Of a stretch of DNA of 33,339 nucleotides, positions 482-30,342 are shown one piece after another. Positions within the stretch are counted from its first letter, which is position 1, and every line of letters begins with the position of its first letter. Source of the DNA: Burkholderiaceae bacterium (lineage in GTDB: Bacteria; Pseudomonadota; Gammaproteobacteria; Burkholderiales; WYBJ01); NCBI GenBank assembly GCA_011525945.1, contig WYBJ01000204.1:1-33339 (forward strand), given 5' to 3'. The notes under the pieces were generated by a model that was given only the letters and a program-made list of their open reading frames with translations, was not told the origin of the DNA and searched no databases. The translations under genes and the position numbers were made by a program.

Positions 482-3031
482 ATGAACAGGCTCAATTTTT
501 GGCGGTCGGACTGGTTTATCGGCGTGGTGGCCACGCTGGTCATCCTCATTCTGTCTCCCCAAGACCTGCTGCAGAGCCTGGAGCGCAAGGCCTACGACCT
601 CGGCGTGCGCGCCACGTCGCAAACCCCGAGCGATCGCATCGCCGTCATCGCCATCGACGATCAGAGCATCGCCAACATCGGCCGTTGGCCCTGGTCGCGC
701 GACGTACACGCGCGCATGACCGAGTTGTTGATCGGCGCCAAGGCGAAGGTGATCGGTTACAACGTATTCTTCTTCGAGCCGCAGATCGATCCGGGCCTGG
801 AATACATCAACAAGCTGACCGACGTTTTCGCCGCATCGTCTTTTCGCAATTCCGCCGATCCGGCTGCGGGTCAGTTCAACCGTCTCCTCGCCGAGGCGGC
901 CGAAGCGCTGAACGCCGATGCCAAGCTGCAAGGCAGCTTCAAGCGTGCCAACAACGTCGTCCTGCCGTTCGTATTCCAGGCGCTGGTGGAGCCGCAGGGC
1001 AATCCCGACAAGCCGCTCCCCGACTATATGCTGAGGAGCAGCATCTCGGCGTCCGATCGGGGCGTGGATGTCGAGCAACTGCCGATTCCGGGCATCAACC
1101 CGCTCTTTCCCTTGGAAGGTTTTGCGACTGCCGCGGTTGCGCTCGGTCACCTCAATGCCGATCGCGACATCGACGGTGCGGTTCGCACCGAGCCGCTGGT
1201 GGTGCGCTACTACGACAAGTATTTTCCGGCGATGTCGGTGATGCTGGCAGCGCAAAGCCTGAATCTGGCGCCCGCCGACATCCGTCTCAATTTCGGCGAG
1301 GGACTGGTCCTGGGCAAGCTCAGGATTCGTACCGACTCGAATCTGCGCATGTACACGTACTTCTATTCCGGCCAGGAAGGTGGGAGGCCGCCTTTCCCGA
1401 TCGATTCGTTCTTCGACGTCTATAGCGGCAAGATCCCGCCGGAGAAGTACCGTGACAAGATCGTGCTCATCGGACCCACCGCCACCGGACTCGGCCAGGC
1501 CCAGGTGACGCCCGTGTCGGCGGCGACTTCGCCGGTCGAAACCATGGCGCACACGGTGTCGAGCATTTTGCGCGAGCACTACTTCGTCGCGCCGAGCTGG
1601 GGCATCTGGGTGCAGTTGCTGCTCATCGTCCTGGTCGCCGCCTACCTGATCGGCGTCCTGCCTCGGCTGAAGGCGGGCACCGGCGCGATCGTTTCGCTCG
1701 CGCTTCTGACCGCGCTGATCGTTGGGCACTTCGCCTTGATGGTCGGCAAGCAGATGTGGATCCAGTTCATGACGGCTGCGGTGCTGCTGGTCGTGGGTCA
1801 CGCCCTGCTCACCACCAAGCGCTTCCTGCTGACGGAAAAGGGCAAAGAGAAATCCGAGGCCGAGTCGGCCCATTCCAATCGCATGCTGGGGCTTGCGTTG
1901 CAGGGCCAGGGGCAGCTCGACATGGCGTTCGACATGTTCCGCAAGCTCCCGCTCGACGATTCGGTCATGGATCTGCTCTACAACCTTGCGCTCGATTTCG
2001 AGCGCAAGCGCCAGTTCAACAAGACCGAGTCGGTATTCCGCTACATGGCGGACTACAACCCGAAGTTCCGCGATCTGGAGCAGCGCCTCGGGCGGGCCAA
2101 GGCGATGAGCGAGACGGTCATGCTGGGCGGTACGGGGTCGCACCCCGGCGGCACCATGCTGCTCGGCGCCGGCACCGAGAAGCCGATGCTGGGCCGATAC
2201 CAGGTGGAGCGCGAGCTCGGTAAGGGCGCCATGGGCATCGTCTATGGCGGGCGCGACCCCAAGATCAATCGGGTGGTCGCGATCAAGACGATGGCGTTGG
2301 CTCAGGAGTTCGACGCCGACGAGCTCGAGGACGTGAAAGCGCGCTTCTTCCGCGAGGCCGAAACCGCCGGTCGGCTCAATCATCCAAACATCGTCACCAT
2401 CTTCGATGCCGGCGAGGAGCACGATCTGGCTTACATCGCGATGGAATTCCTCAAGGGCAGGGATCTGGTGCCGTACACCAAGCCGGACAACCTGCTCCCG
2501 ATCGCCAGGACCATGAGTATCATGGCGCGGGTGGCCGAGGCGCTGAGTTACGCGCACTCGCAGAACGTGGTTCACCGTGACATCAAGCCGGCCAATATCA
2601 TGTACGAGCCGGAAAGCGATTCGGTCAAGGTCACAGACTTCGGTATTGCGCGTATCACCGACTCGTCGCGCACCAAGACCGGCATGGTGCTCGGTACGCC
2701 CTCTTACATGTCGCCCGAGCAACTCGCGGGCAAGAAGATCGGCGGGCAGTCGGATCTGTTCTCGCTCGGCGCAACGATGTTCCAGATGGTCTGCGGCCAG
2801 CTTCCGTTTCAGGGCGATTCCATGGCACAGCTGATGTTCAAGATTGCCAACGAGCCGCATCCCGACATCGTCGCGATTCGCCCGGACGTGCCCGATTGCC
2901 TGGCCGCGATCATCAATCGGGCGCTTGCCAAGAATCCGGAAGAGCGCTTCCAGACGGGCGAGGAGATGGCACGGGCCATCCGCACCTGCGTCGCGAGCCT
3001 GACCTCGGACACGATCGACATCGGGTTGTAG
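482..3031 (+). CDS. CHASE2-domain serine/threonine protein kinase
   Basis: This is an 849-residue membrane sensor kinase. A membrane segment (about 11-25) precedes a periplasmic CHASE2 domain (about 30-360, with GRWPWSR at 67-73). Three membrane segments follow (about 374-393, 401-421, 426-444). A short TPR-like stretch (465-535) leads to a cytoplasmic Hanks-type kinase domain (about 571-840). The catalytic set is complete: glycine loop GKGAMG from 580, K602 in VAIK, H698-R699-D700, N705, D719-F720-G721, and SPE at 744-746. The juxtamembrane linker holds T545 and T558, each with Leu at +3, a pattern FHA domains can bind once phosphorylated. A PP2C phosphatase gene starts 7 bases downstream and an FHA gene follows, so these three probably form one operon and circuit. 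The ATG sits 1-2 bases after a GGGGAAGGG run, a tight ribosome-binding site. The CHASE2 ligand is unknown. Confidence 0.93.
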   Translation: MNRLNFWRSDWFIGVVATLVILILSPQDLLQSLERKAYDLGVRATSQTPSDRIAVIAIDDQSIANIGRWPWSRDVHARMTELLIGAKAKVIGYNVFFFEPQIDPGLEYINKLTDVFAASSFRNSADPAAGQFNRLLAEAAEALNADAKLQGSFKRANNVVLPFVFQALVEPQGNPDKPLPDYMLRSSISASDRGVDVEQLPIPGINPLFPLEGFATAAVALGHLNADRDIDGAVRTEPLVVRYYDKYFPAMSVMLAAQSLNLAPADIRLNFGEGLVLGKLRIRTDSNLRMYTYFYSGQEGGRPPFPIDSFFDVYSGKIPPEKYRDKIVLIGPTATGLGQAQVTPVSAATSPVETMAHTVSSILREHYFVAPSWGIWVQLLLIVLVAAYLIGVLPRLKAGTGAIVSLALLTALIVGHFALMVGKQMWIQFMTAAVLLVVGHALLTTKRFLLTEKGKEKSEAESAHSNRMLGLALQGQGQLDMAFDMFRKLPLDDSVMDLLYNLALDFERKRQFNKTESVFRYMADYNPKFRDLEQRLGRAKAMSETVMLGGTGSHPGGTMLLGAGTEKPMLGRYQVERELGKGAMGIVYGGRDPKINRVVAIKTMALAQEFDADELEDVKARFFREAETAGRLNHPNIVTIFDAGEEHDLAYIAMEFLKGRDLVPYTKPDNLLPIARTMSIMARVAEALSYAHSQNVVHRDIKPANIMYEPESDSVKVTDFGIARITDSSRTKTGMVLGTPSYMSPEQLAGKKIGGQSDLFSLGATMFQMVCGQLPFQGDSMAQLMFKIANEPHPDIVAIRPDVPDCLAAIINRALAKNPEERFQTGEEMARAIRTCVASLTSDTIDIGL

Positions 3032-3038
3032 CCCAGGC

Positions 3039-3866
3039 ATGGCCATATTGTCCGCGGCTCTGGAGTTCGCCTCGGCCACCGACCCGGGGCGGGTTCGCTC
3101 GCACAACGAGGATTCGATCGGCACGGAACCGGAGGTCGGCCTGGCGGTGCTGGCCGACGGGATGGGTGGTTATAACGCGGGTGAGGTTGCCAGCGGGATC
3201 GCCGTGGCGGTGGTATCGGCCGAGATAAAGCGCGCCCTGTCCGGCCGGACCCTGCACTCGATCGATCCGGCCACGGGCCGAACGGAAGCGGAATGTATCG
3301 CGCTCAAGCACAGCGCGAAGGCAAACACCTCGATTTTCGAGGCTGCACGCAGTCAGCCGCAGTACTCCGGTATGGGGACGACGCTGGTGGTGGCGCTGTT
3401 CTTCGACAATCGTGTCTGCGTCGCTCACGTCGGCGACTCGCGTTTGTATCGGCTGCGAGCAGACGCGTTCGAGCAGATCACGCGCGATCATTCGTTGTTG
3501 CAGGAACAGATCGACAGCGGCATGATTACTCGCGAGGCGGCCAAGCTGTCGCAGAACAAGAACCTGGTGACGCGCGCGTTGGGCATCGATGCCGAGGTCG
3601 AAACCGAGGTTCATGTTTACGAGACCAAGCCGGGCGATACGTATCTACTGTGCTCTGATGGCCTCAGCGATATGGTCGGTGATGATGACATGAAGATCAC
3701 GCTGGCCAGCCTGCAGGCGAACCTGCAACTGGCGGCGGAACAGTTGGTCCAGCAAGCGAACGACAATGGCGGTCGAGACAACATTTCGGTGATACTCGTC
3801 AGGGTCAAGGACGACTATGCCGCGCCCAAGGGCTGGATTGCGCGGCTCATATCGTGGTTTAAATAA
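3039..3866 (+). CDS. PP2C-family serine/threonine protein phosphatase
   Basis: This 275-residue metal-dependent phosphatase is of the bacterial Stp/PrpC type. The expected metal-binding aspartates are present: D25 in SHNEDS, D40 in ADGMGG, D207 in CSDGLSD and D247 in GGRDN. GMGTTL and HVGDSRLYRL are also conserved. It lies between a kinase and an FHA protein, the usual partners for reversing Ser/Thr phosphorylation. The kinase stop is 7 bases upstream, so the two are very likely co-transcribed. The C-terminus (about 264-275) is a short aromatic and basic amphipathic stretch (WIARLISWFK) that could dock on the membrane near the kinase; that part is inference. The upstream ribosome-binding site is weak (CCAGG), which fits translational coupling. 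Confidence 0.93.
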   Translation: MAILSAALEFASATDPGRVRSHNEDSIGTEPEVGLAVLADGMGGYNAGEVASGIAVAVVSAEIKRALSGRTLHSIDPATGRTEAECIALKHSAKANTSIFEAARSQPQYSGMGTTLVVALFFDNRVCVAHVGDSRLYRLRADAFEQITRDHSLLQEQIDSGMITREAAKLSQNKNLVTRALGIDAEVETEVHVYETKPGDTYLLCSDGLSDMVGDDDMKITLASLQANLQLAAEQLVQQANDNGGRDNISVILVRVKDDYAAPKGWIARLISWFK

Positions 3867-3881
3867 GCACGGGGTACTGCC

Positions 3882-4772
3882 ATGGCGAAGCTGATTCTCA
3901 GTCTGGATGGGACAGTCATGAAGGAAGTCCCCCTCGATAGGGAGCGCCTGACCGTCGGACGCCGTTCGAGCAACGACCTGCAGATCGACAATCTGGCCGT
4001 AAGCGGCGAGCACGCCCTGATCGTTACGATCCTCAACGATTCCTTTCTCGAGGATCTCGGCAGCACCAACGGCACGCTCGTCAACGGCGTGCCGATAAAA
4101 AAGCACATTCTGCAGCACAACGACGTGATCGAGATCGGCAAGTACAAACTGAAATACATCGCCGAGCACATCGCCACCGGCATGCAGCCCGCCGTTGCTG
4201 CCGAGTTCGAAAAGACCATGGTCATACGCCCCGGGATGGCGGCAAGGGCCGCGCAGACCGGCGCCAGCCCGGCCTTCGGTGCAGGCCCCGCAGCGACCGC
4301 GACGACCACCCAGCCGGGGTCGGCCGGTCAGGCCGCGAGCCCGATCACCGGCCAGCAGTCGCGACCGGCTAGCGCGCCGCCGGCGGCGCCACCACCCCCA
4401 GCGGCCAGGCCTACGACGCAGCCATTGGCGAGCGCGACGCAGTCGTACGCGGGACCAGCGCCTACCCAGACCAATTTGCAGCCGCAAGCGCCGGCCGCCG
4501 GCCAGTTGCTCGGTGCGATCCAGATTCTTACCGGCCCGAGCGCCGGTAAGGAGCTGGAACTCGTGAAGAACCTTACCACCCTCGGCAAGCCCGGGGTGCA
4601 GGTGGCCGTCATCACACGGCGCCCGCAGGGCTACTTCATCACGCATGTCGAGGGCGCCAACTTTCCGATCGTGAACGGCAAGACGCTCGACGCGCAGGCG
4701 CATCCGCTGCGCGACCACGACATCGTCGAATTGGCCGGGGTCAAGATGGAGTTCTTTCACAAGGGCGCTTGA
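3882..4772 (+). CDS. two-FHA-domain phosphothreonine-binding protein
   Basis: This 296-residue protein has a canonical N-terminal FHA domain (about 1-95): G26-R27, S41-x-x-H44 and the STNGT loop at 61-65, the residues that hold phosphothreonine. Residues about 118-207 are a low-complexity Ala/Pro/Thr/Gln linker. Residues about 208-293 look like a second FHA fold (LTTLGKPGVQ, then an IVNGKTL loop), but the Arg and Ser/His contacts are not evident, so it may not bind phosphate. Just after the first FHA, T112 sits in EKTMVIRP with Ile at +3, making it a candidate target of the neighbouring kinase and a possible self-ligand. The gene starts 15 bases after the phosphatase gene. It probably acts as the adaptor or output of the kinase/phosphatase pair; its partner is unknown. 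Confidence 0.9.
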   Translation: MAKLILSLDGTVMKEVPLDRERLTVGRRSSNDLQIDNLAVSGEHALIVTILNDSFLEDLGSTNGTLVNGVPIKKHILQHNDVIEIGKYKLKYIAEHIATGMQPAVAAEFEKTMVIRPGMAARAAQTGASPAFGAGPAATATTTQPGSAGQAASPITGQQSRPASAPPAAPPPPAARPTTQPLASATQSYAGPAPTQTNLQPQAPAAGQLLGAIQILTGPSAGKELELVKNLTTLGKPGVQVAVITRRPQGYFITHVEGANFPIVNGKTLDAQAHPLRDHDIVELAGVKMEFFHKGA

Positions 4773-5081: not shown

Positions 5082-7355
5082 GTGAAGAAGCACGCCGTGC
5101 GCATCGGCTTCGGCATCCTGGTCGTGCTGGTTTTTGTTGCCAATGCCGCCGGTTGGGTCCGGCTGCCCCTGATGGAGCATCTGGAAGCGCTTACTTACGA
5201 CGCTCGGCTCAAATCCACGATGCCGAATACCGTGGATCCACGCATCGTCATTGTCGACATCGACGAGGCGAGTCTGCGCCCGCGGGAGTTGGGCGGCGAA
5301 GGGCGCTGGCCGTGGCCGCGCAATCGGCTCGCGCTCATGCTCGACAACCTGTTCGACAGGTATGGAGCGGCGATCGTCGGATTCGACGTGGTGTTCGCCG
5401 AGCGCGACGAGAGCTCCGGGCTCCAGGTTCTGCGCAACCTGGCGAACTCGCAGCTCAAAGATGACGCCTCGTTCCGGTCCGCGCTCGCGCGGATCGAGCC
5501 GCAGCTTGATTTCGACGGTGCGTTCGCCGATCGCATGCGCAACCGCCCGGTGGTGCTGGGCTATTATTTCTCCCCTGAGCGCCGGGCGGCGGTAAGCGGC
5601 ATGTTGCCCGCCCCGGTCCTTCCACCCGGCACGTTCGCCGGCAAGAACATCCCCTTCTATACCGCCTACGGGTTTGGCGGAAATTTGCCGGACCTGATCC
5701 GGGCGGCTGCCAGCGCCGGCCACTTCAATCCGTATACCGACCCGGATGGCGTGTCGCGTCGCGTGCCCATGCTGGTGGAGTTCAAGGGCGCCTACTACGA
5801 GCCACTGTCGCTCGCGATGGTGCGCGTACTGCTCGGGATGACCGCGGCGGCCAAGACCGGAGCGGCGACGATCGCCTTACCTAAGGTCGTGCCGGGATAT
5901 CCCACCGAGGGCATCTGGTCGCGCGGCTATCAGGGACTCGAATGGCTGCAGGTCGGACCCCTGCGCATTCCGGTCGACGATCGCGTCACCGCGTTGGTGC
6001 CGTATCGGGGTAAACAAGGCAGCTTCAAGTACTTAGCGGCAGCAGACGTAATCCAGGGGAAGGCGGATCCAGCCGACCTCAAGGGGAAGATCGTGCTCGT
6101 CGGGACCACGGCGCCAGGGCTGTTCGATCTGCGATCGACACCGGTCGCCTCGGTCTATCCCGGCGTGGAGATCCACGCCAACCTGATCGCCGGCATGCTC
6201 GATCAGAATATCAAGCAAAAGCCCCCTTACGTGCTGGGGGCGGAAATCGTGTTGCTGCTGCTCACCGGGCTGGCCATGACGCTCGCCTTGCCCCTGCTCG
6301 CACCGGACCGCCAGGCGCTCGCCACGGTGGGTGCGCTGGTGTCGGTGGTGGCGGCCAATATCGCCATTTTCCATTACGAGAACCTGGTGCTGCCGCTCGC
6401 GTCAGGATTGGCGATGATCGCGGTGCTGTTCATCTTCAGCATGGCGTACGGCTTTTTCGTCGAGGCCCGGGGCAAGCGTCAGATTACGAGCCTGTTCGGA
6501 CAATACGTTCCGCCGGAACTGGTGGACGAGATGGCGAAGGACCCGACGAGCTTCTCGATGGAGCCAGAAAGCCGCGAGATGACGGTGCTGTTCTCCGACG
6601 TTCGCGGCTTTACCACGATATCCGAGGGCTTGGAGCCGAAAGATCTGTCCAGCCTGATGAACGAATTCCTCACGCCCCTGACCGAAGTCATCTACAGTCA
6701 TCGCGGCACCATCGACAAGTACATGGGAGACGCCATCATGGCGTTCTGGGGAGCGCCCCTGCCGGCTCACGATCACGCCCGGCAGGGCATCAGGGCGGCG
6801 CTTCAGATGCACCGCAAGCTCGCCGCGCTGCAACCGCAGTTCAAGAGCCGTAATTGGCCCGAGATCCGCATCGGTGTGGGCCTGAACACGGGACGCATGA
6901 GCGTGGGCAACATGGGTTCGAGCGTCCGGCTTGCCTACACGGTGATGGGCGACGCGGTCAATCTGGCCTCTCGACTCGAGGGGCTCACCAAGGAGTATGG
7001 CGCCGCCATCATCGTCGGCGAATCGACCCGAGCCCTTACTGCTCAGGATTTCGTCTATCGCGAGCTCGACCGCGTGCGCGTCAAGGGCAAGCTCGAGCCC
7101 GTGGCGATCTACGAGCCGCTCGGGGCTACTGGTGAGGTCGACAAGCGCACCCTGGACGAGCTGAGGATATTCTCGCAGGCGCTTAAGCTCTATCGTGCGC
7201 AGGACTGGGACATGGCGGAGCTGCAGCTCATCAACTTGCTCAAGGCGACGCCTCAGTTCCGGCTCTACCAGCTTTATCTGGACCGCATCGGCGTCTACCG
7301 CAGCAGCCCGCCCGGCAGGGGCTGGGATGGCGCCTTCACGTTCGAGCACAAGTAG
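5082..7355 (+). CDS. CHASE2-domain class III adenylate/guanylate cyclase
   Basis: This is a 757-residue membrane-bound class III cyclase. A membrane segment (about 8-25) is followed by a periplasmic CHASE2 domain (about 30-375), three membrane segments (about 384-405, 411-429, 435-458), and a catalytic domain (about 495-685). Catalytic residues are visible: metal aspartates D506 (FSDVRGF) and D550 (KYMGD), and transition-state residues N627 and R631 (VMGDAVNLASR). K546, just before YMGD, favours ATP as substrate, so cAMP is the likely product; guanylate activity is not excluded. The C-terminal 70 residues are a short TPR-like helical tail. The GTG start has a good ribosome-binding site, GGAGG at 5073-5077. 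The next gene, 2 bases downstream, resembles a cyclic-nucleotide phosphodiesterase. The CHASE2 sensor resembles that of the upstream kinase (GRWPWPR here, GRWPWSR there). Confidence 0.92.
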   Translation: MKKHAVRIGFGILVVLVFVANAAGWVRLPLMEHLEALTYDARLKSTMPNTVDPRIVIVDIDEASLRPRELGGEGRWPWPRNRLALMLDNLFDRYGAAIVGFDVVFAERDESSGLQVLRNLANSQLKDDASFRSALARIEPQLDFDGAFADRMRNRPVVLGYYFSPERRAAVSGMLPAPVLPPGTFAGKNIPFYTAYGFGGNLPDLIRAAASAGHFNPYTDPDGVSRRVPMLVEFKGAYYEPLSLAMVRVLLGMTAAAKTGAATIALPKVVPGYPTEGIWSRGYQGLEWLQVGPLRIPVDDRVTALVPYRGKQGSFKYLAAADVIQGKADPADLKGKIVLVGTTAPGLFDLRSTPVASVYPGVEIHANLIAGMLDQNIKQKPPYVLGAEIVLLLLTGLAMTLALPLLAPDRQALATVGALVSVVAANIAIFHYENLVLPLASGLAMIAVLFIFSMAYGFFVEARGKRQITSLFGQYVPPELVDEMAKDPTSFSMEPESREMTVLFSDVRGFTTISEGLEPKDLSSLMNEFLTPLTEVIYSHRGTIDKYMGDAIMAFWGAPLPAHDHARQGIRAALQMHRKLAALQPQFKSRNWPEIRIGVGLNTGRMSVGNMGSSVRLAYTVMGDAVNLASRLEGLTKEYGAAIIVGESTRALTAQDFVYRELDRVRVKGKLEPVAIYEPLGATGEVDKRTLDELRIFSQALKLYRAQDWDMAELQLINLLKATPQFRLYQLYLDRIGVYRSSPPGRGWDGAFTFEHK

Positions 7356-7357
7356 CG

Positions 7358-8122
7358 ATGAAGCTGAGGGTCCTCGGCTGCAGCGGCGGCATCGGCGGTT
7401 GCCTGCGGACGACCTCGATGTTGCTCGACGACGATATCCTGATCGATGCCGGAACCGGGGTGGGGGAGCTCACGATCGCGCAGCTCTGCAAGATCGATCA
7501 CGTGTTCGTGACACACTCGCACATGGATCACGTCACCTCGATCCCGTTCATTGTCGACACCGTCGGTGGCATGCGCTCCGGACCCCTTACGGTGCATGCC
7601 ACCGAGGCCACGCTCGACATCATTCACAGGCACATCTTCAACTGGAAGATCTGGCCTGATTTCACTCAGATCCCGAGCCGTGAGAACCCCTATTTGCGCC
7701 TGCAGCCGGTGCACGTGGGCGCCGAGGTCAGCCTCGGCGGGAGGTCGATCACTCCGGTGCCGGCGAACCACGTCGTGCCCGCGGTGGGCTATCATGTGGA
7801 CAGCGGGCGCGCAAGTCTCGTCTTCACCGGCGATACCACCAGCAACGACGAGCTCTGGCGGGTGGTCAACCGGATCGAGAACCTGCGTTACATCATCATA
7901 GAAACCGCGTTCTGCAACAAGGAGCGAGATTTGGCGGTGGCGTCCAAGCATTTGTGCCCGGACATGCTTGCCGAGGAGCTGGCGAAGCTAAGCCGCAAGG
8001 CCGCGATCTATATCACGCACCTCAAACCCGGCGAGCCCGAGATCATCATGCGAGAGATCGAGGCGAGTGCTGCAAAGTATGCTCCGAGCATGCTGCGCAA
8101 CGATCAGGTATTCGAGCTATGA
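7358..8122 (+). CDS. MBL-fold hydrolase, likely class II cNMP phosphodiesterase
   Basis: This 254-residue metallo-beta-lactamase-fold protein carries the metal-binding motif H53-x-H55-x-D57-H58 (HSHMDH), with further candidate ligands H138, D159 (TGDT), H198 and H221 (THLKPG). Overall form and motifs resemble class II 3',5'-cyclic-nucleotide phosphodiesterases. RNase Z and other hydrolases of this fold share the motif, so the fold alone does not prove the substrate. The strongest argument is position: the ATG lies 2 bases after the stop of a class III cyclase gene, so synthesis and breakdown of the same messenger would be made from one transcript. No signal peptide is seen, so it should be cytoplasmic, where the cyclase domain also sits. 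Confidence 0.8.
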   Translation: MKLRVLGCSGGIGGCLRTTSMLLDDDILIDAGTGVGELTIAQLCKIDHVFVTHSHMDHVTSIPFIVDTVGGMRSGPLTVHATEATLDIIHRHIFNWKIWPDFTQIPSRENPYLRLQPVHVGAEVSLGGRSITPVPANHVVPAVGYHVDSGRASLVFTGDTTSNDELWRVVNRIENLRYIIIETAFCNKERDLAVASKHLCPDMLAEELAKLSRKAAIYITHLKPGEPEIIMREIEASAAKYAPSMLRNDQVFEL

Positions 8123-8162: not shown

Positions 8163-10544
8163 ATGAGCAGCGTACTCGAAAGCAAGCCTGCCGCGCAGGA
8201 CAACGTGCTCGCCGAGAAGCTGACGTTCTCGCGCAATCTGCAGGCGGTGACGAACAAGATCCATGCGACCAGCAACATCGACGAAATCATGTTGGAGCTC
8301 TCGCAGGACATCTGCGCGCTGCTCAACGCCGATCGCCTGACGCTTTACTCGGTATCCGAGGACAAGCAGTCCATCATCTCCAAGGTGAAGATGGGGCTGA
8401 ATCAGTTCAAGGATCTGAAGCTGCCGATTAGCGAGCAGAGCATCGCCGGCTACTGCGCCACCCACAAGCGAGTGATCAACATCCGCGACGTGTACGACGA
8501 CACCGAACTCAAGTCGTACAGCCCGCAGCTCAACTTCCTGAAGGAAGTCGACAAGCGCACCGGCTACCGCACCAAGCAGATGCTGGTCGCGCCCGTGATC
8601 GATGGCCCCGGCAAGGATCTGATGGGTGTCATCCAGATCATCAACAGCAAAGCCGGGCAGCCGTTCTCGACCATGGTCGAGGAGGGTGTGACGCATCTAG
8701 CCGAAACGCTTGCGATCGCCTTCCGCCAGCGCAGCCGGGTGCAACCGGCGCTGGTGCGCGGCAAGTACGACGCGCTGGTGACCAACGCTGTGATCTCGGC
8801 CGAAGAGATGGAGCTCGCGACACGTTCCGCGCGCCGCAAGAATCTGGAAGTCGAGACAGTCCTGCTGGACGAGTTCCAGGTCAAGCCCAACGCCCTGGGC
8901 GAGGCTCTCGCGGCTTTCTTCGGCGTGCCCTATGAACCCTACCGTGCCGACCGCATCAAGCCGCTCGACTTGCTGCGTAATCTCAAGCGCGATTTCTGCG
9001 TCTCCAGCGGCTGGGTGCCGATCGATGATAGCAAGGAAGGCCTCTTGGTGCTCACCACCGATCCCGAGAAGATCAAGAGCTCGAGGGTGGTGAACAACGT
9101 ATTTCCGAAGGCCAAGCTCGTCTACAAGGTCTGCTCGCAGCGTGAGTTCGGCATGGCGCTGGACCAGATGTTCGGTGCGGAAGCCGATCTCGGTGGGTCG
9201 ATCGACGACATGCTCGGCGGCCTGGACGAGGTGGAGCTCGAGGATGCGGTCGGCGGCGGCGACGATGCGGTGAGCGCGGCCAATGACAACGAGCTGGTGA
9301 AGCTGGTCAACAAGGTTATCGTCGACGCCTACAGCCAAGGCGCCTCGGACATTCACGTTGAGCCGTATCCCGGAAAGCAGAAGACCGAAATCCGCTTCCG
9401 CAAGGATGGCTCGCTGCAGCCCTACATCTCGGTTCCGGCCAGCTATCGAAACGCGATCGCGGCGCGGCTGAAGATCATGTGCGATCTGGACATCGCGGAG
9501 AAGCGCAAGCCCCAGGACGGCAAGATCAAGTTCAAGAAGTTCGGCCCGCTCGACATCGAGCTACGCGTGGCGACCATTCCTACGCAGGGCGGGGTCGAAG
9601 ACATCGTCATGCGTATCCTGGCCGCGGGCGAGCCGATCCCGCTCGACAAGCTGGGGCTGTCGGCGCGCAATCTCGAGCGCATGAAATCGGCGATCGAGAA
9701 ACCGTATGGGCTTTTCTTCGTCTGTGGGCCGACGGGCTCAGGCAAGACTACCTCGCTTCATTCGGTGCTGGGTTATCTCAACACCCCCGACACCAAGATC
9801 TGGACCGCCGAGGATCCGGTAGAAATCACCCAGCGGGGCTTGCGTCAGGTGCAGATGAATCCGAAGGCGGGGCTTTCGTTCGCGGTTGCGATGAAGGCGT
9901 TCCTGCGCGCCGACCCCGACATCATCATGGTGGGTGAGATGCGCGACAAAGAGACCACGTCGACCGGCATCGAGGCCTCGCTTACCGGCCACCTAGTGTT
10001 CGCGACGCTGCACACCAATAGCGCGCCCGAGTCGATCATCCGCCTGCTCGACATGGGCATGGATCCGTTCAACTTCGCCGACGCGCTGCTGGGCGTGCTC
10101 GCCCAGCGCTTGGCCAAGCGCCTTTGCGCCAAGTGCAAGCGCGCGCATCCGGCGTCACAGTCCGAGATCGACGCGTTGCTCGACGAGTATGCGCAGGAGC
10201 TCACCCATACGGCGGCGTGGAAACAGGACGCCAAGGCGAGCCGCGCGGCGCTCGCCAAGGAGTGGATGGAGGGTTTCAGTAACGACAAGGGCGAGCTCGT
10301 TCTGTACGAGGCGGTCGGCTGCGAAGTGTGCGGCGGCACGGGTTACAAGGGGCGGGTCGGATTGCACGAGCTGCTGCTCGGTTCGGACGCGATCAAGAAG
10401 CATATTCAGGAGCACGCGCGCGTGGCCGAAATGATCGCGACGGCTCTGGAGGACGGCATGCGCACGTTGAAGCAGGACGGCATCGAGAAGGTCCTGCAGG
10501 GCGTAACCGACATCAAGCAAGTTCGCGCGGTGTGCATCAAGTAG
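8163..10544 (+). CDS. GAF-domain GspE/PilB-type assembly ATPase
   Basis: This 793-residue protein belongs to the type II secretion/type IV pilus assembly ATPases. An N-terminal GAF domain (about 25-190) comes first, then a GspE/PilB N-terminal-like domain (about 200-335), then the ATPase core (about 370-790). The core has Walker A GPTGSGKTT (522-530), Walker B DPDIIMVGE (584-592), the intervening Asp box, a His box around 610-620, and a four-cysteine zinc site (C655, C658, C720, C723). It looks catalytically intact. A GAF domain at the front is unusual for PilB/GspE and suggests control by a small molecule. The GAF carries KRTGYRTK, close to KKTGYRSK in the next protein. No pilC, pilD, pilM or secretin gene is nearby; the nearest pilins are about 9.5 kb downstream. 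Ribosome-binding site GAGGGTG precedes the ATG. Confidence 0.92.
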   Translation: MSSVLESKPAAQDNVLAEKLTFSRNLQAVTNKIHATSNIDEIMLELSQDICALLNADRLTLYSVSEDKQSIISKVKMGLNQFKDLKLPISEQSIAGYCATHKRVINIRDVYDDTELKSYSPQLNFLKEVDKRTGYRTKQMLVAPVIDGPGKDLMGVIQIINSKAGQPFSTMVEEGVTHLAETLAIAFRQRSRVQPALVRGKYDALVTNAVISAEEMELATRSARRKNLEVETVLLDEFQVKPNALGEALAAFFGVPYEPYRADRIKPLDLLRNLKRDFCVSSGWVPIDDSKEGLLVLTTDPEKIKSSRVVNNVFPKAKLVYKVCSQREFGMALDQMFGAEADLGGSIDDMLGGLDEVELEDAVGGGDDAVSAANDNELVKLVNKVIVDAYSQGASDIHVEPYPGKQKTEIRFRKDGSLQPYISVPASYRNAIAARLKIMCDLDIAEKRKPQDGKIKFKKFGPLDIELRVATIPTQGGVEDIVMRILAAGEPIPLDKLGLSARNLERMKSAIEKPYGLFFVCGPTGSGKTTSLHSVLGYLNTPDTKIWTAEDPVEITQRGLRQVQMNPKAGLSFAVAMKAFLRADPDIIMVGEMRDKETTSTGIEASLTGHLVFATLHTNSAPESIIRLLDMGMDPFNFADALLGVLAQRLAKRLCAKCKRAHPASQSEIDALLDEYAQELTHTAAWKQDAKASRAALAKEWMEGFSNDKGELVLYEAVGCEVCGGTGYKGRVGLHELLLGSDAIKKHIQEHARVAEMIATALEDGMRTLKQDGIEKVLQGVTDIKQVRAVCIK

Positions 10545-10558
10545 CGGTCGCGGCCGCC

Positions 10559-12190
10559 ATGGATCCCTCCGCCGCGCACAGTCTGTTCAAGCGTCTTGAG
10601 GAACTGAACAGCATCGGCGTGTCCCTCTCCAAGGAGAAGGACATCACCCGGCTGCTGGAGAAGATCCTGATCGCGGCCAAGACGATCACGAATGCCGATG
10701 GCGGCACGCTCTATCGCATCAACGAGGAGGGCAACTGCCAGTTCGAGATCATGCGCACGGATTCGCTCAATATCGCCATGGGCGGGACGACCGGCGTGCC
10801 GATCCCGTTCTATCCGATCCATCTGATCGGGCGTGAGGGGCTTCCGAACAACTCGATGGTAGTGGCGTACTCCGTGCTGCACGACAGCACGGTCAATATA
10901 CCAGATGCATACGCTGCGGAAGGGTTCGACTTCTCCGGCACGAAGAACTTCGACAAGAAGACCGGCTACCGATCGAAGTCGTTTCTGACGGTGCCGATGA
11001 AGAATCACGAGAACGAGATCATCGGCGTACTGCAACTCATCAATGCGCAGGATCGCGCGAACGGGGAGATCATCGCCTTCTCGGCCGCCGATCAGTCGCT
11101 GGCCGAATCGCTCGCCTCGCAGGCGGCGATCGCACTCACCAACCGGCTGCTGATCAATCAGTTGGAGGATCTGTTCGAGGCATTCATCAACCTCATCAAC
11201 ACCGCCATCGACGACAAGTCGCCGTACACGGGTGGACATTGCCAGCGCGTTCCGGTCCTTACCATGATGCTGGCGGAGGCGGCCATCCGCACACGCACGG
11301 GGCCGCTGCGCGATTTTGCGCTCGACGAGCACGCGCTGTACGAGTTGAAGCTCGCGGGGCTCCTGCACGATTGCGGCAAGGTAACCACACCCGTACACAT
11401 CGTCGACAAGGCGACCAAGTTGCAGACGATATTCGATCGGATCGATCTGATCGACACGCGCTTCGAGGTGGTAAAACGCGAGGCCGAGATCGAGTTCCTC
11501 AGGACGAAGCTCGAGCTGCTGAGCGGGAACCCAAGTGCGAGCATTAGCGCGCTGGAGGTGCAGTTGCGCCAGCGCTTGAGCGCGCTTGACGACGATCGCA
11601 ACTTCCTGCGCCGGATCAACATCGGCGGCGAATCGATGAGCCGCAAGGACCTCGAACGGGTTGAGCGCATCGCGCGCACGCAGTGGACCAACGAGCACGG
11701 CGAGCGGGCGGCGCTGCTGAGCAGCGACGAGGTCTACAACCTGTCGATCACGCGCGGGACACTCACGCGCGAGGATCGCCAGATCATCAACAACCATGTC
11801 GCGATGACCTTCAAGATGCTTTCGGCGCTGCCGTGGCCCAAGCACTTGCGCGGCGTGCCCGAAATCGCGGCGAGTCACCACGAGCGCCTCGACGGCAGGG
11901 GCTATCACCGCGGCCTAACCGCCGAGCAGATGCCGTTATCGGCGCGCATCGTCGCTATCGCCGATATCTTCGAAGCCTTGACGGCTAAGGACCGGCCCTA
12001 CAAGCCGGGTAAGACGCTATCCGAATCGCTGGAGATTCTGGGGCGGATGGCGATGGAGAATCACGTCGACTCGCACTTGTTCGATGTGTTCATCCGCGAG
12101 AAGGTATATCTCAAGTATGCGGAGCAGTTTCTCGATCCGGTGCAAATCAATCTGGTGGATGAGACGCAGATACCGGGCTACACCCCGTAG
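10559..12190 (+). CDS. GAF-HD-GYP cyclic-di-GMP phosphodiesterase, variant
   Basis: This 543-residue protein has a GAF domain (about 10-198) followed by an HD-GYP domain (about 200-530). HD-GYP enzymes hydrolyse c-di-GMP. H270-D271 with G273-K274 (HDCGK) and H440-H441 (HHERLDGRGY) are present. Two features are odd. The name-giving GYP triplet reads GYH (448-450). The distance between HDCGK and HHE is about 170 residues, roughly 100 more than usual, with a charged helical insert. The metal ligands are retained, so activity is plausible but not certain. The ATG at 10559 starts 14 bases after the ATPase stop; the frame is open further upstream, but that part overlaps the ATPase gene and was excluded. 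The GAF core resembles that of the ATPase, so both may respond to the same signal. Confidence 0.9.
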   Translation: MDPSAAHSLFKRLEELNSIGVSLSKEKDITRLLEKILIAAKTITNADGGTLYRINEEGNCQFEIMRTDSLNIAMGGTTGVPIPFYPIHLIGREGLPNNSMVVAYSVLHDSTVNIPDAYAAEGFDFSGTKNFDKKTGYRSKSFLTVPMKNHENEIIGVLQLINAQDRANGEIIAFSAADQSLAESLASQAAIALTNRLLINQLEDLFEAFINLINTAIDDKSPYTGGHCQRVPVLTMMLAEAAIRTRTGPLRDFALDEHALYELKLAGLLHDCGKVTTPVHIVDKATKLQTIFDRIDLIDTRFEVVKREAEIEFLRTKLELLSGNPSASISALEVQLRQRLSALDDDRNFLRRINIGGESMSRKDLERVERIARTQWTNEHGERAALLSSDEVYNLSITRGTLTREDRQIINNHVAMTFKMLSALPWPKHLRGVPEIAASHHERLDGRGYHRGLTAEQMPLSARIVAIADIFEALTAKDRPYKPGKTLSESLEILGRMAMENHVDSHLFDVFIREKVYLKYAEQFLDPVQINLVDETQIPGYTP

Positions 12191-12215: not shown

Positions 12216-12569
12216 TCAGCGTTTCGCGCTGCCTGCAGCCGACGCGCTCGGAGCCTTGCGCGTGATGTAGACAATCAGGCCTTCGGTCGCCATTTCGATG
12301 AATGGCTTGCTGTAGCCGAGCTCGGTCAGCTCCCAACGAAAGGTATTGCCCAGGCGGGCCTTCTTGTAGACGCCAAGGCTCTTGCCAGACTCGAACTCGA
12401 TCGCCTTGCGGTAGGCGTCTTCCAATACCTTAGCGATCCGGTTCTGCGAAATCTTCTTCTCCTTCGCCTGATCGAGCGAAGGCGGGTAGCGCCTGGAAAT
12501 GTCGACCGCGAGCGATTTGGCGAAGTGGTCGACATCCTTGCTGGAAAAGCGATCGAAGATCCCCATCAT
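12216..12569 (-). CDS. conserved-looking hypothetical protein, 117 aa
   Basis: I do not recognise this protein. It starts MMGIFDRFSSKDVDHFAKSL and has a charged helical N-terminal half, a central K/R-rich stretch (KEKKISQNRIAKVLEDAYRK) and an Ala/Ser-rich tail. No signal peptide, membrane segment or cysteine motif is seen; it should be cytoplasmic. A good ribosome-binding site (AGGAG) precedes two adjacent ATG codons at 12569 and 12566, and the second is at the more usual spacing. The frame stays open upstream to 13118, but that part lies over the next gene and is rejected. Codon use looks like a real gene. It is convergent with the HD-GYP gene and divergent from the TPR gene. Confidence 0.7.
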   Translation of the reverse strand: MMGIFDRFSSKDVDHFAKSLAVDISRRYPPSLDQAKEKKISQNRIAKVLEDAYRKAIEFESGKSLGVYKKARLGNTFRWELTELGYSKPFIEMATEGLIVYITRKAPSASAAGSAKR

Positions 12570-12777
12570 CGGTCTCCTGGCGGCGCCGCAGTCCTCGGTG
12601 TGCGGCGGCAGCGTTATTGTCCGACAAGCCACGCCAGTGTGCCAGCGCGCTTGTGGCGTCATACTTTGGATGAAGGCCAATCTTGTTCCGCTATCCGATA
12701 GCATACGCAGTGACGCTGCGAACCGGTGCGGCCGCGAGCAGCACGCTAGCCGGCATGTGCGGCTTCTGCGGAGGCAT

Positions 12778-14523
12778 ATGCTTTCCCGACTTCTCTCGTC
12801 GCTGATCCGCCGGCCCGATCGGCCACGCGGTACTGCGCCCAGGCACGGCGGCAGCGACCTCGTCGAGCAGGCCGAGCAGGCGCTCGCCGAGGGCGATTCA
12901 CAGCGTGCCCAAACCATGCTAGAGAACGCGCTGCATGCTGGCGCTGAATCGGCCCGTATCCGACGCGCGCTGGGCAGCATCCTGGGCGCCGGCGGCCATC
13001 TCGAGCGCGCGCGAGTGGAGTTGGAACGGGCGTTGGAAATCGAGCCCGACCACGCGTCGGCGCTGGCCGACCTCGGCAACGTGCACCGCCTGTCCGGGCG
13101 GTTCGATGAGGCACGCATGTGTTACGTGAGCGCGTTGCGCCACGACTCGGAGAATGCGGCCGTCGGCTGCAATCTTGCACTGCTCGACGATCACACGGGC
13201 CGCACCGAGGCTGCCATCGATGCGCTGCGCTCGCTCGTGCAATATCCCGCGTATCCCGAGGCCGTGCGCGCGCTCGTCGATATCCTCGGTCGGATCGGCC
13301 GCACTGCGGAAGCGAAGTCGACATGCACCGCGATCCTGGCGCGAGAACCGGACCATGCGCTCGCGCATGCCGTGCTCGGATTCCTGCTGCTCAAGCGCGA
13401 GCTGGAGCCTGAACGGGCGCTCGAGCATTTCGACCGCGCGATCGCGCTCGGTTACGCGGACGCGGAGCTGTGGTCGAACCGGGGCATTGCCTTGCAGCAT
13501 TCGGGCCGGATCGAGGAGGCGATCGCCAGTTACGATATCGCGGTACAAGTCGGGCCGAACTATCGGTTGGCGCGCTTTCATCGCGCGCTGGCGCTGCTGA
13601 TGCGAGGCGATTTCGGGCAGGCGTGGCCGGACTACGAACTGCGGCTGCTGAGCGAGGATCGACCCAAACCGCCGCGATCGTTTCCCGCCTGGCGCGGTGA
13701 GCGGTTGCCCGCAGGAGCCTTGTTCGTCCATGGCGAGCAAGGGATCGGCGATGAAATCATGTTCGCTTCATGTCTGCCCGACGTCATAGACCTTCAACCG
13801 AGGACCGTCATCGCGTGCAGTGCCAAGCTCGAGACCATTTTTCGGCGCTCGTTTCCGAGCGCGGCGGTGATGAGCCTGCAGCGTGCGTGCGAGTCGAGCG
13901 CGGACGTCGAGTTCGCCGACGTAATGGCGATGGCGCCGATCGGCAGCCTGCCACGGCATTTCAGGCTGTCGCGCGAGTCCTTTCCAAGACACGCCGGCTA
14001 TCTGCGCGCGGATCCCGATCTTGTCGAGGAATATCGTGCTCGACTCGCCCGCCTGGGAAGCGTGCCTAAGGTAGGCGTTTCCTGGCGCGGCGGAAGCGAG
14101 CTGACTCGCCGCGCCCTTCGCAGCCTGGACGCAGAGCGGCTTGCCCGGCTCCTCGCCACGCCGGGCGTGCAATTCGTCAATCTTCAATACGACAGCCGGC
14201 CCGAAGGCGAGGGCATCGAGCGCGTATTGGCCGAAGGCAAGCTCGTGCACTGGCAGGACGCGCTCGACGATTACGATCGGACCGCAGCCCTCGTCTGTGC
14301 GCTCGATTCGATCATCAGCGTGTGCACGGCCTTGATACACCTAGGCGGGGCGCTCGGTCGACCGGTGTCGGTCATGGCGCCGCACAGCCCGGAGTGGCGC
14401 TACGGGATCGGCACAGACACCATGCCTTGGTACCCGTCGGTGCATGTCGAGCGCCAGCCCAGGGCGGGCGACTGGGACTCCGTCGTCTGCGCCGTACAGC
14501 GCAGACTGGCGGCGGGGATCTGA
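12778..14523 (+). CDS. TPR protein with C-terminal glycosyltransferase domain (copy 1)
   Basis: This 581-residue protein is the first of four paralogues in the window. TPR repeats fill about 30-290, and a GT-B-like, family 9-type domain fills about 300-578. Shared motifs are EQGIGDE (320-326), FASC, SWRGG (435-439), CTALIHLGGALGRP and MPWYPS. The family resembles glycosyltransferases often found in flagellin or pilin modification loci; donor and acceptor are unknown. The ATG at 12778 follows GGAGG by 3 bases and gives an N-terminus (MLSRLLSSLIRR) like those of the paralogues. The frame is open further upstream, but that part overlaps the divergent small gene. No membrane segment is seen beyond the short amphipathic N-terminus. 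Confidence 0.85.
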   Translation: MLSRLLSSLIRRPDRPRGTAPRHGGSDLVEQAEQALAEGDSQRAQTMLENALHAGAESARIRRALGSILGAGGHLERARVELERALEIEPDHASALADLGNVHRLSGRFDEARMCYVSALRHDSENAAVGCNLALLDDHTGRTEAAIDALRSLVQYPAYPEAVRALVDILGRIGRTAEAKSTCTAILAREPDHALAHAVLGFLLLKRELEPERALEHFDRAIALGYADAELWSNRGIALQHSGRIEEAIASYDIAVQVGPNYRLARFHRALALLMRGDFGQAWPDYELRLLSEDRPKPPRSFPAWRGERLPAGALFVHGEQGIGDEIMFASCLPDVIDLQPRTVIACSAKLETIFRRSFPSAAVMSLQRACESSADVEFADVMAMAPIGSLPRHFRLSRESFPRHAGYLRADPDLVEEYRARLARLGSVPKVGVSWRGGSELTRRALRSLDAERLARLLATPGVQFVNLQYDSRPEGEGIERVLAEGKLVHWQDALDDYDRTAALVCALDSIISVCTALIHLGGALGRPVSVMAPHSPEWRYGIGTDTMPWYPSVHVERQPRAGDWDSVVCAVQRRLAAGI

Positions 14524-29040: not shown

Positions 29041-30342
29041 TTGACTCCGAGCAAGATCGGCAAGTACGAAATTGTGCGCGAGCTGGGGCGCGGCGCGACC
29101 AGTGCGGTGTTCGAGGCGGTCGATCCATTTACGAGCCGGCGCGTGGCGATCAAATGGGTGCTGCCCGAGGCGCTGCGTGATCGGGACCACGGCAAGCGCT
29201 ATCGCAAGCTCTTCATCACCGAAGCTTCGCTCGCGGGCAAGCTCGCTCATCCGCACATCGCCACGATCTACGACGCGGTGGCCGAGGACGACGGCAGCTA
29301 CATCGTGATGGAATACGTCGACGGTGGCACGCTCGAACGCTTCGCCCGCGTCGACAGCCTGTTGTCGATACCGCAAGTGCTCGAGATCGTCTTCAAGTGC
29401 TGCAAGGCGCTCGACTACGCCGCCAAGCAAGGCGTGATCCATCGTGACATCAAACCGGCCAACATCCTGCTCACGAAAGACAACCAGATCAAGATTACCG
29501 ATTTCGGAGCGGCGCTCACCAACACCGCCCAGACGACTCAGGTGAGCGGCATCGGTTCGCCGGCCTACATGTCGCCGCAGCAGGTGAAGGAGCTTAACCT
29601 CACGCATCAGACCGACATCTATTCGCTCGGCGTGGTTCTGTACCAGCTGCTAACAGGACGGCTCCCGTTCCAGGCGAGCAACAACTACAGTCTCATCTAC
29701 CACGTCATCAATTCCGAGCCGTCGCCGCCGTCACGCCACCGCCCCGAGGTGACGCCCAATCTGGACGCGATCGTTGCGCGCGCCATGCACAAGTCGACCG
29801 ATGCACGCTACCTCACTTGGGAGGAGTTCGCGTTCGACCTGGCGAACGCGTTCGGATCTCTCTCCAGCCGGGTCGAGGCGATTCCCGACAGCGAGAAGTT
29901 CAACACCTTGCGCCAACTCGACTTCTTCCGCCGATTCAGCGACGTGGAGCTGTGGGAGGTGCTGCGCATCACCAACTGGCATCGTCATCCCAAGGACACG
30001 ATCCTGATCAAGGAGGGCGAGGTCGGGACGTCTTTCTTCGTCCTGGCGGCAGGTGAGGTCAAGGTCACCAAGCAGGAACGGCTGCTGAACGTACTGCGCA
30101 CCGGCGCCTGCTTTGGCGAGATGGCGCAACTCGCCCGGCACGAATTCGTGCGCACCGCGAGTGTCGCCGCACTGTCGCAGATCACCGTGATCGAGATCCG
30201 GTCCGATCGCCTGCAGCAAGCCTCCGAGAGCTGCAGGCACCAGTTCAACGGTGCGTTTCTCGCTATGTTGGTTGACCGGCTGGCGCTGGCCAACACGCGC
30301 TTGAGCCAGTTGCTCGCCGAGCGCAACATAAGCACGGGTTGA
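29041..30342 (+). CDS. serine/threonine kinase fused to cyclic-nucleotide-binding domain
   Basis: This 433-residue soluble protein joins a Hanks-type kinase (about 8-270) to a cyclic-nucleotide-binding (CNB) domain (about 295-415). Kinase residues are present: GRGATS loop, K38, H134-R135-D136, N141 and D154-F155-G156. The APE-type motif reads SPQ (178-180), so the usual Glu is Gln; the salt bridge it normally makes would be lost. The CNB phosphate cassette FGEMAQLARHEFVRTAS keeps G359, E360 and R371, so binding is plausible; RTA after the cassette Arg is more typical of cGMP-selective domains than RAA. TTG 29041 is the only usable start: the frame has a stop at 29008-29010 and no ATG or GTG before the glycine loop. 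No ribosome-binding site is seen. It could read the messenger made by the CHASE2 cyclase. Confidence 0.9.
   Translation: MTPSKIGKYEIVRELGRGATSAVFEAVDPFTSRRVAIKWVLPEALRDRDHGKRYRKLFITEASLAGKLAHPHIATIYDAVAEDDGSYIVMEYVDGGTLERFARVDSLLSIPQVLEIVFKCCKALDYAAKQGVIHRDIKPANILLTKDNQIKITDFGAALTNTAQTTQVSGIGSPAYMSPQQVKELNLTHQTDIYSLGVVLYQLLTGRLPFQASNNYSLIYHVINSEPSPPSRHRPEVTPNLDAIVARAMHKSTDARYLTWEEFAFDLANAFGSLSSRVEAIPDSEKFNTLRQLDFFRRFSDVELWEVLRITNWHRHPKDTILIKEGEVGTSFFVLAAGEVKVTKQERLLNVLRTGACFGEMAQLARHEFVRTASVAALSQITVIEIRSDRLQQASESCRHQFNGAFLAMLVDRLALANTRLSQLLAERNISTG

Follow-up and report, generated by a model that had tools for sequence, protein, structure and literature searches.

A betaproteobacterial assembly ATPase with a cAMP-receptor-like GAF domain may be switched directly by cAMP

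The window analysed here is a 33,339-nucleotide stretch of DNA from a Burkholderiaceae bacterium (Burkholderiales, WYBJ01; GenBank assembly GCA_011525945.1, contig WYBJ01000204.1, positions 1 to 33,339 of the forward strand). It contains an adjacent pair of genes, the first encoding a motor ATPase of GAF-MshEN-T2SSE architecture (8163-10544) and the second a GAF-HD-GYP protein (10559-12190), with 14 bases between them. In many betaproteobacteria, a motor of the pilus or secretion type is fused in this way to a sensor domain with a pocket like those of known receptors for cyclic AMP (cAMP), and enzymes that appear to make and destroy cAMP are encoded next to it. The messenger may thus switch the motor directly. 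The parts are of known kinds; their combination was not found described. The features of the motor are as follows.

8163-10544, forward strand: assembly ATPase consisting of GAF, degenerate MshEN and T2SSE domains (Pfam E values 9.2e-10, 3.2e-10 and 7.8e-114, respectively)
8232-8732, forward strand: GAF domain of the ATPase, residues 24-190 (AlphaFold2 model with a mean pLDDT, the predicted local distance difference test score, of 86.9; closest folds PmGH, PDE2A, PDE5 and CyaB2)
8334-8342, forward strand: R58-L59-T60, equivalent to the adenine contacts R291/T293 of CyaB2 (R58 and T60 identical in all 123 GAF-ATPases)
8550-8573, forward strand: core D130-K-R-T133-G-Y-R-T137, equivalent to D356/N359 of CyaB2 (D130 invariant; T133 is T or S)
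8625-8645, forward strand: GVIQIIN, with Q158 and N161, the latter being the N of the NKFDE motif (both invariant)

The motor ATPase retains the features of the T2SSE family, namely a Walker A motif (GPTGSGKT), the Walker B/His box region with the DPDIIMVGEMRD stretch and the TGHLVFATLHTNSA box, and two CxxC pairs, and on this reading of its residues it looks active as an assembly motor. It misses the NCBIfam PilB/GspE equivalog cut-offs (491 against 675.65 and 441 against 630.25 bits), and is therefore best described as a related but non-canonical PilB/GspE-like ATPase. The c-di-GMP (cyclic di-GMP)-binding motif of MshEN domains, defined as two 24-residue motifs of the form RLGxx(LVI)(LVI)xxG... 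(PMC5013675), was found in neither half of the MshEN region in any of the 123 GAF-ATPases, which rules out that the motor is a c-di-GMP-binding MshE. A different ATPase of the same genome (L002) carries a textbook copy of this motif (RLGELLVQQGLITTDQLRIGLTEQ). Two types of relative of the motor were also seen. GAF-less paralogues, with an ATPase core about 74% identical to that of the window motor, are present at L161:3174-4511 and L162:7181-8518. A second, motor-related GAF-MshEN protein without the catalytic half adjoins the GAF-ATPase at L247:2388-3782 and L248:2420-3913, the L248 copy including masked bases.

The initial annotation of this DNA had pointed to a TGYR core followed by GV(I/L)Q(I/L)IN in both GAF domains, and to its resemblance to GAF domains that bind cyclic nucleotides. 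Both elements are present in the motor (VDKRTGYRTKQ, residues 129-139; GVIQIIN, residues 155-161) and in the GAF-HD-GYP protein (FDKKTGYRSKS; GVLQLIN), and the matches of the two domains to PF01590 (E 9.2e-10 and 8.5e-13) and to solved structures exceed chance. The best sequence relative of the motor GAF in the PDB is the cAMP-bound tandem GAF of the Anabaena adenylate cyclase CyaB2 (1ykd, E 1.4e-27); when a 46-sequence profile is used instead, CyaB2 reaches 2.5e-35 and the next best entry 1.3e-17. Structural comparison of the predicted model by VIA-align places it nearest to cyclic-nucleotide GAF structures and to PmGH, with Z scores of 20.8 for PmGH (2.5 A over 169 residues), 20.1 for PDE2A, 18.4 for PDE5, 17.3 for CyaB2 and 15.9 for cAMP-bound Lcd1. 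The GAF domains of PtsP, which are of another kind, also reach Z 18-19, and hence the fold by itself names no ligand.

The pocket was assessed through alignment to the contact positions of CyaB2, in which the side chains of R291, T293, I308, D356 and N359 of GAFb contact cAMP (PMC4411481). These align with R58, T60, V75, D130 and T133 of the motor, so that every contact position of the predicted pocket is occupied by the same or a substituted residue: V75 stands for I308, and T133 for N359, Thr being also the residue of PDE2A. R58, T60 and D130 never vary in the 123 GAF-ATPases, T133 is always T or S, and the sequences tabulated have a hydrophobic residue at position 75. Within the Burkholderiales set, the contact positions have a mean column entropy of 0.15 bits as compared with 1.11 for the domain (permutation P 0.0008). 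Adding what we take to be the contact positions of PDE2A, the union of both sets is likewise conserved above the domain (permutation P 0.0004). The R-x-T of the motor matches CyaB2 and not PDE2A or PDE5. Overall, cAMP is the likeliest ligand of the motor GAF. The observation made in the initial annotation holds, and more strongly than it was stated.

The neighbouring gene encodes a protein whose GAF domain shares the core but belongs to a different lineage.

10559-12190, forward strand: GAF and HD-GYP protein, predicted c-di-GMP phosphodiesterase, start codon ATG at 10559 (Pfam HD_5 1.9e-39, GAF 8.5e-13)
10640-11137, forward strand: GAF domain of the HD-GYP protein (AlphaFold2 mean pLDDT 90.6; nearest folds PmGH and the PDE5 GAF)
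10949-10975, forward strand: FDKKTGYRS core (the upstream Arg position, 10700-10702, is Gly)

Its nearest PDB sequence is PDE5 GAFa (E 3.9e-17, or 2.5e-28 as a profile). At the position of the adenine-contacting Arg of CyaB2 this GAF has Gly or Ala, with the Thr and the Asp retained, and in a tree it and the motor GAF fall into separate, well-supported clades. The claim that both domains are of the cyclic-nucleotide type thus holds up better for the ATPase than for its neighbour, and the two are not equivalent. A recent duplication of one GAF from the other within the operon, considered as their origin, is ruled out by the separate clades. The catalytic and metal ligands of the HD-GYP domain (HD, HH and D) are conserved across 90 aligned sequences; the GYP motif is present in 87/90, and the window copy is one of the three that read GYH. 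A Tyr occupies the position of PmGH E185, where Y or F marks an HD-GYP subfamily predicted to be binuclear (PMC4159591). Both a cAMP-activated GAF-HD-GYP protein, Tlr0485, and a cAMP-activated GAF-GGDEF protein, Lcd1, are on record (PMC8846402). By analogy with these precedents a cAMP role for the HD-GYP GAF is plausible, and less supported than for the motor GAF; its ligand is less certain because the domain represents a separate lineage without the adenine-contacting Arg.

Five genes on the same strand precede the pair.

482-3031, forward strand: CHASE2 and Ser/Thr protein kinase; opens the conserved cluster and is also found upstream in most related loci (Pfam CHASE2 3.3e-54, Pkinase 3.5e-55)
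3039-3866, forward strand: PP2C-type phosphatase of the NCBIfam Stp1/IreP family, above cut-off (60/80 loci)
3882-4772, forward strand: FHA-domain protein (Pfam FHA 2e-22; 64/80 loci)
5082-7355, forward strand: CHASE2 class III adenylate cyclase (Pfam Guanylate_cyc 3.7e-22; nearest solved relatives are adenylate cyclases)
7358-8122, forward strand: putative phosphodiesterase of the metallo-beta-lactamase (MBL) fold, class II cAMP phosphodiesterase-like, with an HSHMDH motif (Pfam PDEase_II 3e-14; PDB 4ojv)

As the initial annotation had it, a cyclase and a phosphodiesterase lie just upstream of the motor, and they are only 2 bases apart. Read by eye, the cyclase has the residues of a class III adenylate cyclase: the metal-binding Asp pair, the substrate Lys (IDKYMGDA) and Asp (GDAVN), and the Asn/Arg (NLASR). 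The phosphodiesterase has an HxHxDH metal site (HSHMDH), and its top PDB match is a yeast-type 3',5'-cyclic-nucleotide phosphodiesterase 1 (4ojv, E 1.2e-6); its PDEase_II match is above the Pfam cut-off yet local (45-108), and RNase Z models match as well. Two outputs of this one cluster, the Ser/Thr kinase (482-3031) and the cyclase, share the CHASE2 type of envelope sensor. No pilin, platform or secretin genes were seen within the cluster. It is immediately followed by a gene for a TPR-repeat protein (12499-14523). About 17 kb downstream, a further Ser/Thr protein kinase (29041-30342, forward strand) has a C-terminal cNMP_binding domain with a FGEMAQLARHEFVRTA resembling a phosphate-binding cassette, and is possibly regulated by a cyclic nucleotide.

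The association of these genes extends well beyond the window. Our neighbourhood survey covered 80 named relatives, mainly uncultured Betaproteobacteria together with Azospira, Chitinimonas, Noviherbaspirillum and others. Near the motor, 67 of them have a cyclase relative (at least 45% identity), 69 the phosphodiesterase and 70 the GAF-HD-GYP gene, some absences being explained by contig ends. Among 250 sampled Burkholderiales genomes, the GAF-ATPase cluster occurs in about 40% (104/250), and a Guanylate_cyc match is present in all 104 genomes that have the GAF-ATPase and in 76 of the 146 that do not (P 5e-21 by Fisher's test, without correction for kinship). Loci from other orders and classes differ in gene order and strand, and the motor still has as a direct or close neighbour a CHASE2 cyclase (L159, L242, L248), a GAF-HD-GYP gene (L154, L242, L244, L246, L251, L252, L253) or the gene for the MBL enzyme (L154). 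An extra gene encoding some 360 residues is inserted between phosphodiesterase and motor in 28/80 relatives (e.g. L089:6886-7980 and L104:6889-7974, with 26 more among L090-L148), though not in the cluster of the window itself. It combines a cNMP_binding domain with a rhodanese domain in the two copies scanned (E 3e-22 and 2.8e-21), and all 27 copies in which the phosphate-binding cassette was located carry it in canonical form (FGEEAL...RNA or RSA). Since a cyclic-nucleotide receptor of unrelated fold occupies the same place, this gene is independent evidence that the cluster concerns a cyclic nucleotide.

Several observations weigh against cAMP as the input of the motor, and first among them is the state of the NKFDE motif. 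The initial annotation had described this motif as only partly present, which proves to be so in both domains: the motor has N161, F168 and the E, with K replaced by S and D by V, and in the HD-GYP GAF the N, F and D are kept, with A for K and Q for E. The K and D vary among the motors, and in Burkholderiales the two have mostly disappeared as a pair; GAF-ATPases of other classes retain an intact NKFD, and several from other orders read NRFD or NHFD. Neither residue contacts the ligand, yet both matter for binding, and their mutation weakens or abolishes it in PDE2 and PDE5 (PMC11977230). At the level of sequence, the missing pair is the chief objection to cAMP, and because the motif is incomplete we do not count the motor GAF as a proven cyclic-nucleotide receptor. 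Secondly, much of the pocket recurs in PmGH and in one protein of the SpoIIE type, and no ligand is known for either. Thirdly, four genomes (G491, G467, G416 and G453) carry the motor together with only divergent cyclase-like proteins that lack the substrate Lys by reading (one of two matches in G467 was read), and no class I cyclase was found in them; three of the four keep the full contact set, and G453 has Ala for V75. The divergent proteins at L234 (G467) and L235 (G491) are class III cyclase-like and about 360-400 residues long, that of G491 being the sole Guanylate_cyc match of its genome. It may be that such proteins remain able to produce a cyclic nucleotide, that the ligand is a different one, or that something else maintains the pocket. 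Loci without a cyclase nearby show a greater fall in GAF identity, measured against the ATPase core (P 0.009, Mann-Whitney test); lineage confounds this comparison, and the core of the pocket is itself retained.

These points would be accommodated if the TGY core and GVxQxIN were structural traits of a GAF subclass, with the motor GAF binding another small molecule or none and acting as a platform on which neighbouring signalling proteins dimerise or dock. We consider this unlikely, while regarding it as the most serious alternative. Conservation of the pocket positions, the adenine contacts R58 and T60 included, exceeds that of the remaining domain, and cAMP-related genes abound in the neighbourhood. 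Furthermore, the signature is not common to all GAF domains. Many GAFs of the control set lack TGY, in a sample that is biased because its members were chosen for resembling the query or for their PF01590 score. Among 35 GAF stretches from other proteins that could be aligned to the motor profile, R-x-T with D..TG[YF].T occurs in 15, of which 14 are on tandem-GAF class III cyclases (identified from their C-terminal sequences) and one is on the SpoIIE-type protein. In PmGH the same core is accompanied by R-x-S. Given these last two proteins, the signature points to cyclic-nucleotide receptors, not exclusively so.

A role for cGMP or a related nucleotide in place of cAMP is quite improbable: GAF domains of PDE2A, PDE5 and PDE6 are also close in fold, and isolated CyaB2 GAFb binds both nucleotides (PMC4411481), but the R-x-T is that of CyaB2 and the cyclase has, by reading, the Lys/Asp pair of adenylate cyclases. 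Least probable is that the HD-GYP protein alone responds to cAMP, as Tlr0485 and the kinase, PP2C and FHA genes of the cluster might suggest, with the motor controlled indirectly by c-di-GMP or phosphorylation, since it is the motor GAF that has the CyaB2-type Arg and the motor lacks the MshEN c-di-GMP motif.

We therefore lean towards a non-canonical PilB-like motor gated by cAMP through its CyaB2-type GAF. The GAF sits at the N-terminal regulatory position, in place of a working c-di-GMP-binding MshEN. The CHASE2 cyclase, sensing a periplasmic or envelope signal, would make cAMP, and the MBL enzyme would remove it. In the pocket, adenine would pack against R58, T60 and V75, with D130 and T133 closing the lid. 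Binding would, we infer, shift the linker between GAF and MshEN and thereby turn the hexameric motor, whichever filament it drives, on or off. By analogy with Tlr0485, the shared cAMP pool probably also gates the GAF-HD-GYP phosphodiesterase, linking cAMP to c-di-GMP. The cyclic-nucleotide-controlled motor proposed in the initial annotation thus gains from the neighbourhood and from the second receptor fold in many relatives, binding being a prediction and the full NKFDE motif missing.

Elements of this arrangement are familiar from other systems. The tandem GAFs of CyaB2 and CyaB1 (1YKD) share the contacts R, T, I/V, D and T/N as well as D..TGYRT and GVxQxxN, whereas the window GAF is single, is attached to an assembly ATPase and, in betaproteobacterial motors, has lost the NKFDE K and D. 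MshE and PilB likewise join a T2SSE motor to an N-terminal MshEN-type domain, and the allosteric input proposed is again a nucleotide second messenger; unlike them, motors of the window type have neither RLGxx motif (0/123), carry a GAF ahead of MshEN and score under the NCBIfam PilB/GspE cut-offs. Lcd1 (5W10) places a bacterial cAMP-binding GAF on a non-cyclase output, as proposed here, but that output is a diguanylate cyclase and not a motor. Tlr0485 shares the architecture of the 10559-12190 protein, which lacks the CyaB2-type Arg and has GYH for GYP. The Persephonella GAF-HD-GYP protein PmGH (4MCW) is the closest fold to both GAF models, and the parts of its description available to us report no GAF ligand.

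A 2024 review of PilB control has cAMP acting on pili via transcription (Vfr) and c-di-GMP binding the motor, with GAF unmentioned (PMC11656802). Our literature search found no description of the GAF-ATPase cluster, nor a paper joining CHASE2 cyclase, GspE and GAF. More tentatively, and with slightly less than even confidence, we propose a widespread class of motors in which a cAMP-binding GAF replaced the c-di-GMP-binding MshEN as allosteric input. One operon would also hold the cyclase and the phosphodiesterase, in many cases together with another receptor for cAMP, as well as a c-di-GMP phosphodiesterase gated by cAMP, and cAMP would act directly on the machine and not through transcription. 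If true, a motor that itself binds cAMP would provide a direct and fast input beyond transcription, and its gating by cAMP would give a function to a cluster found in about 40% of the sampled Burkholderiales genomes.

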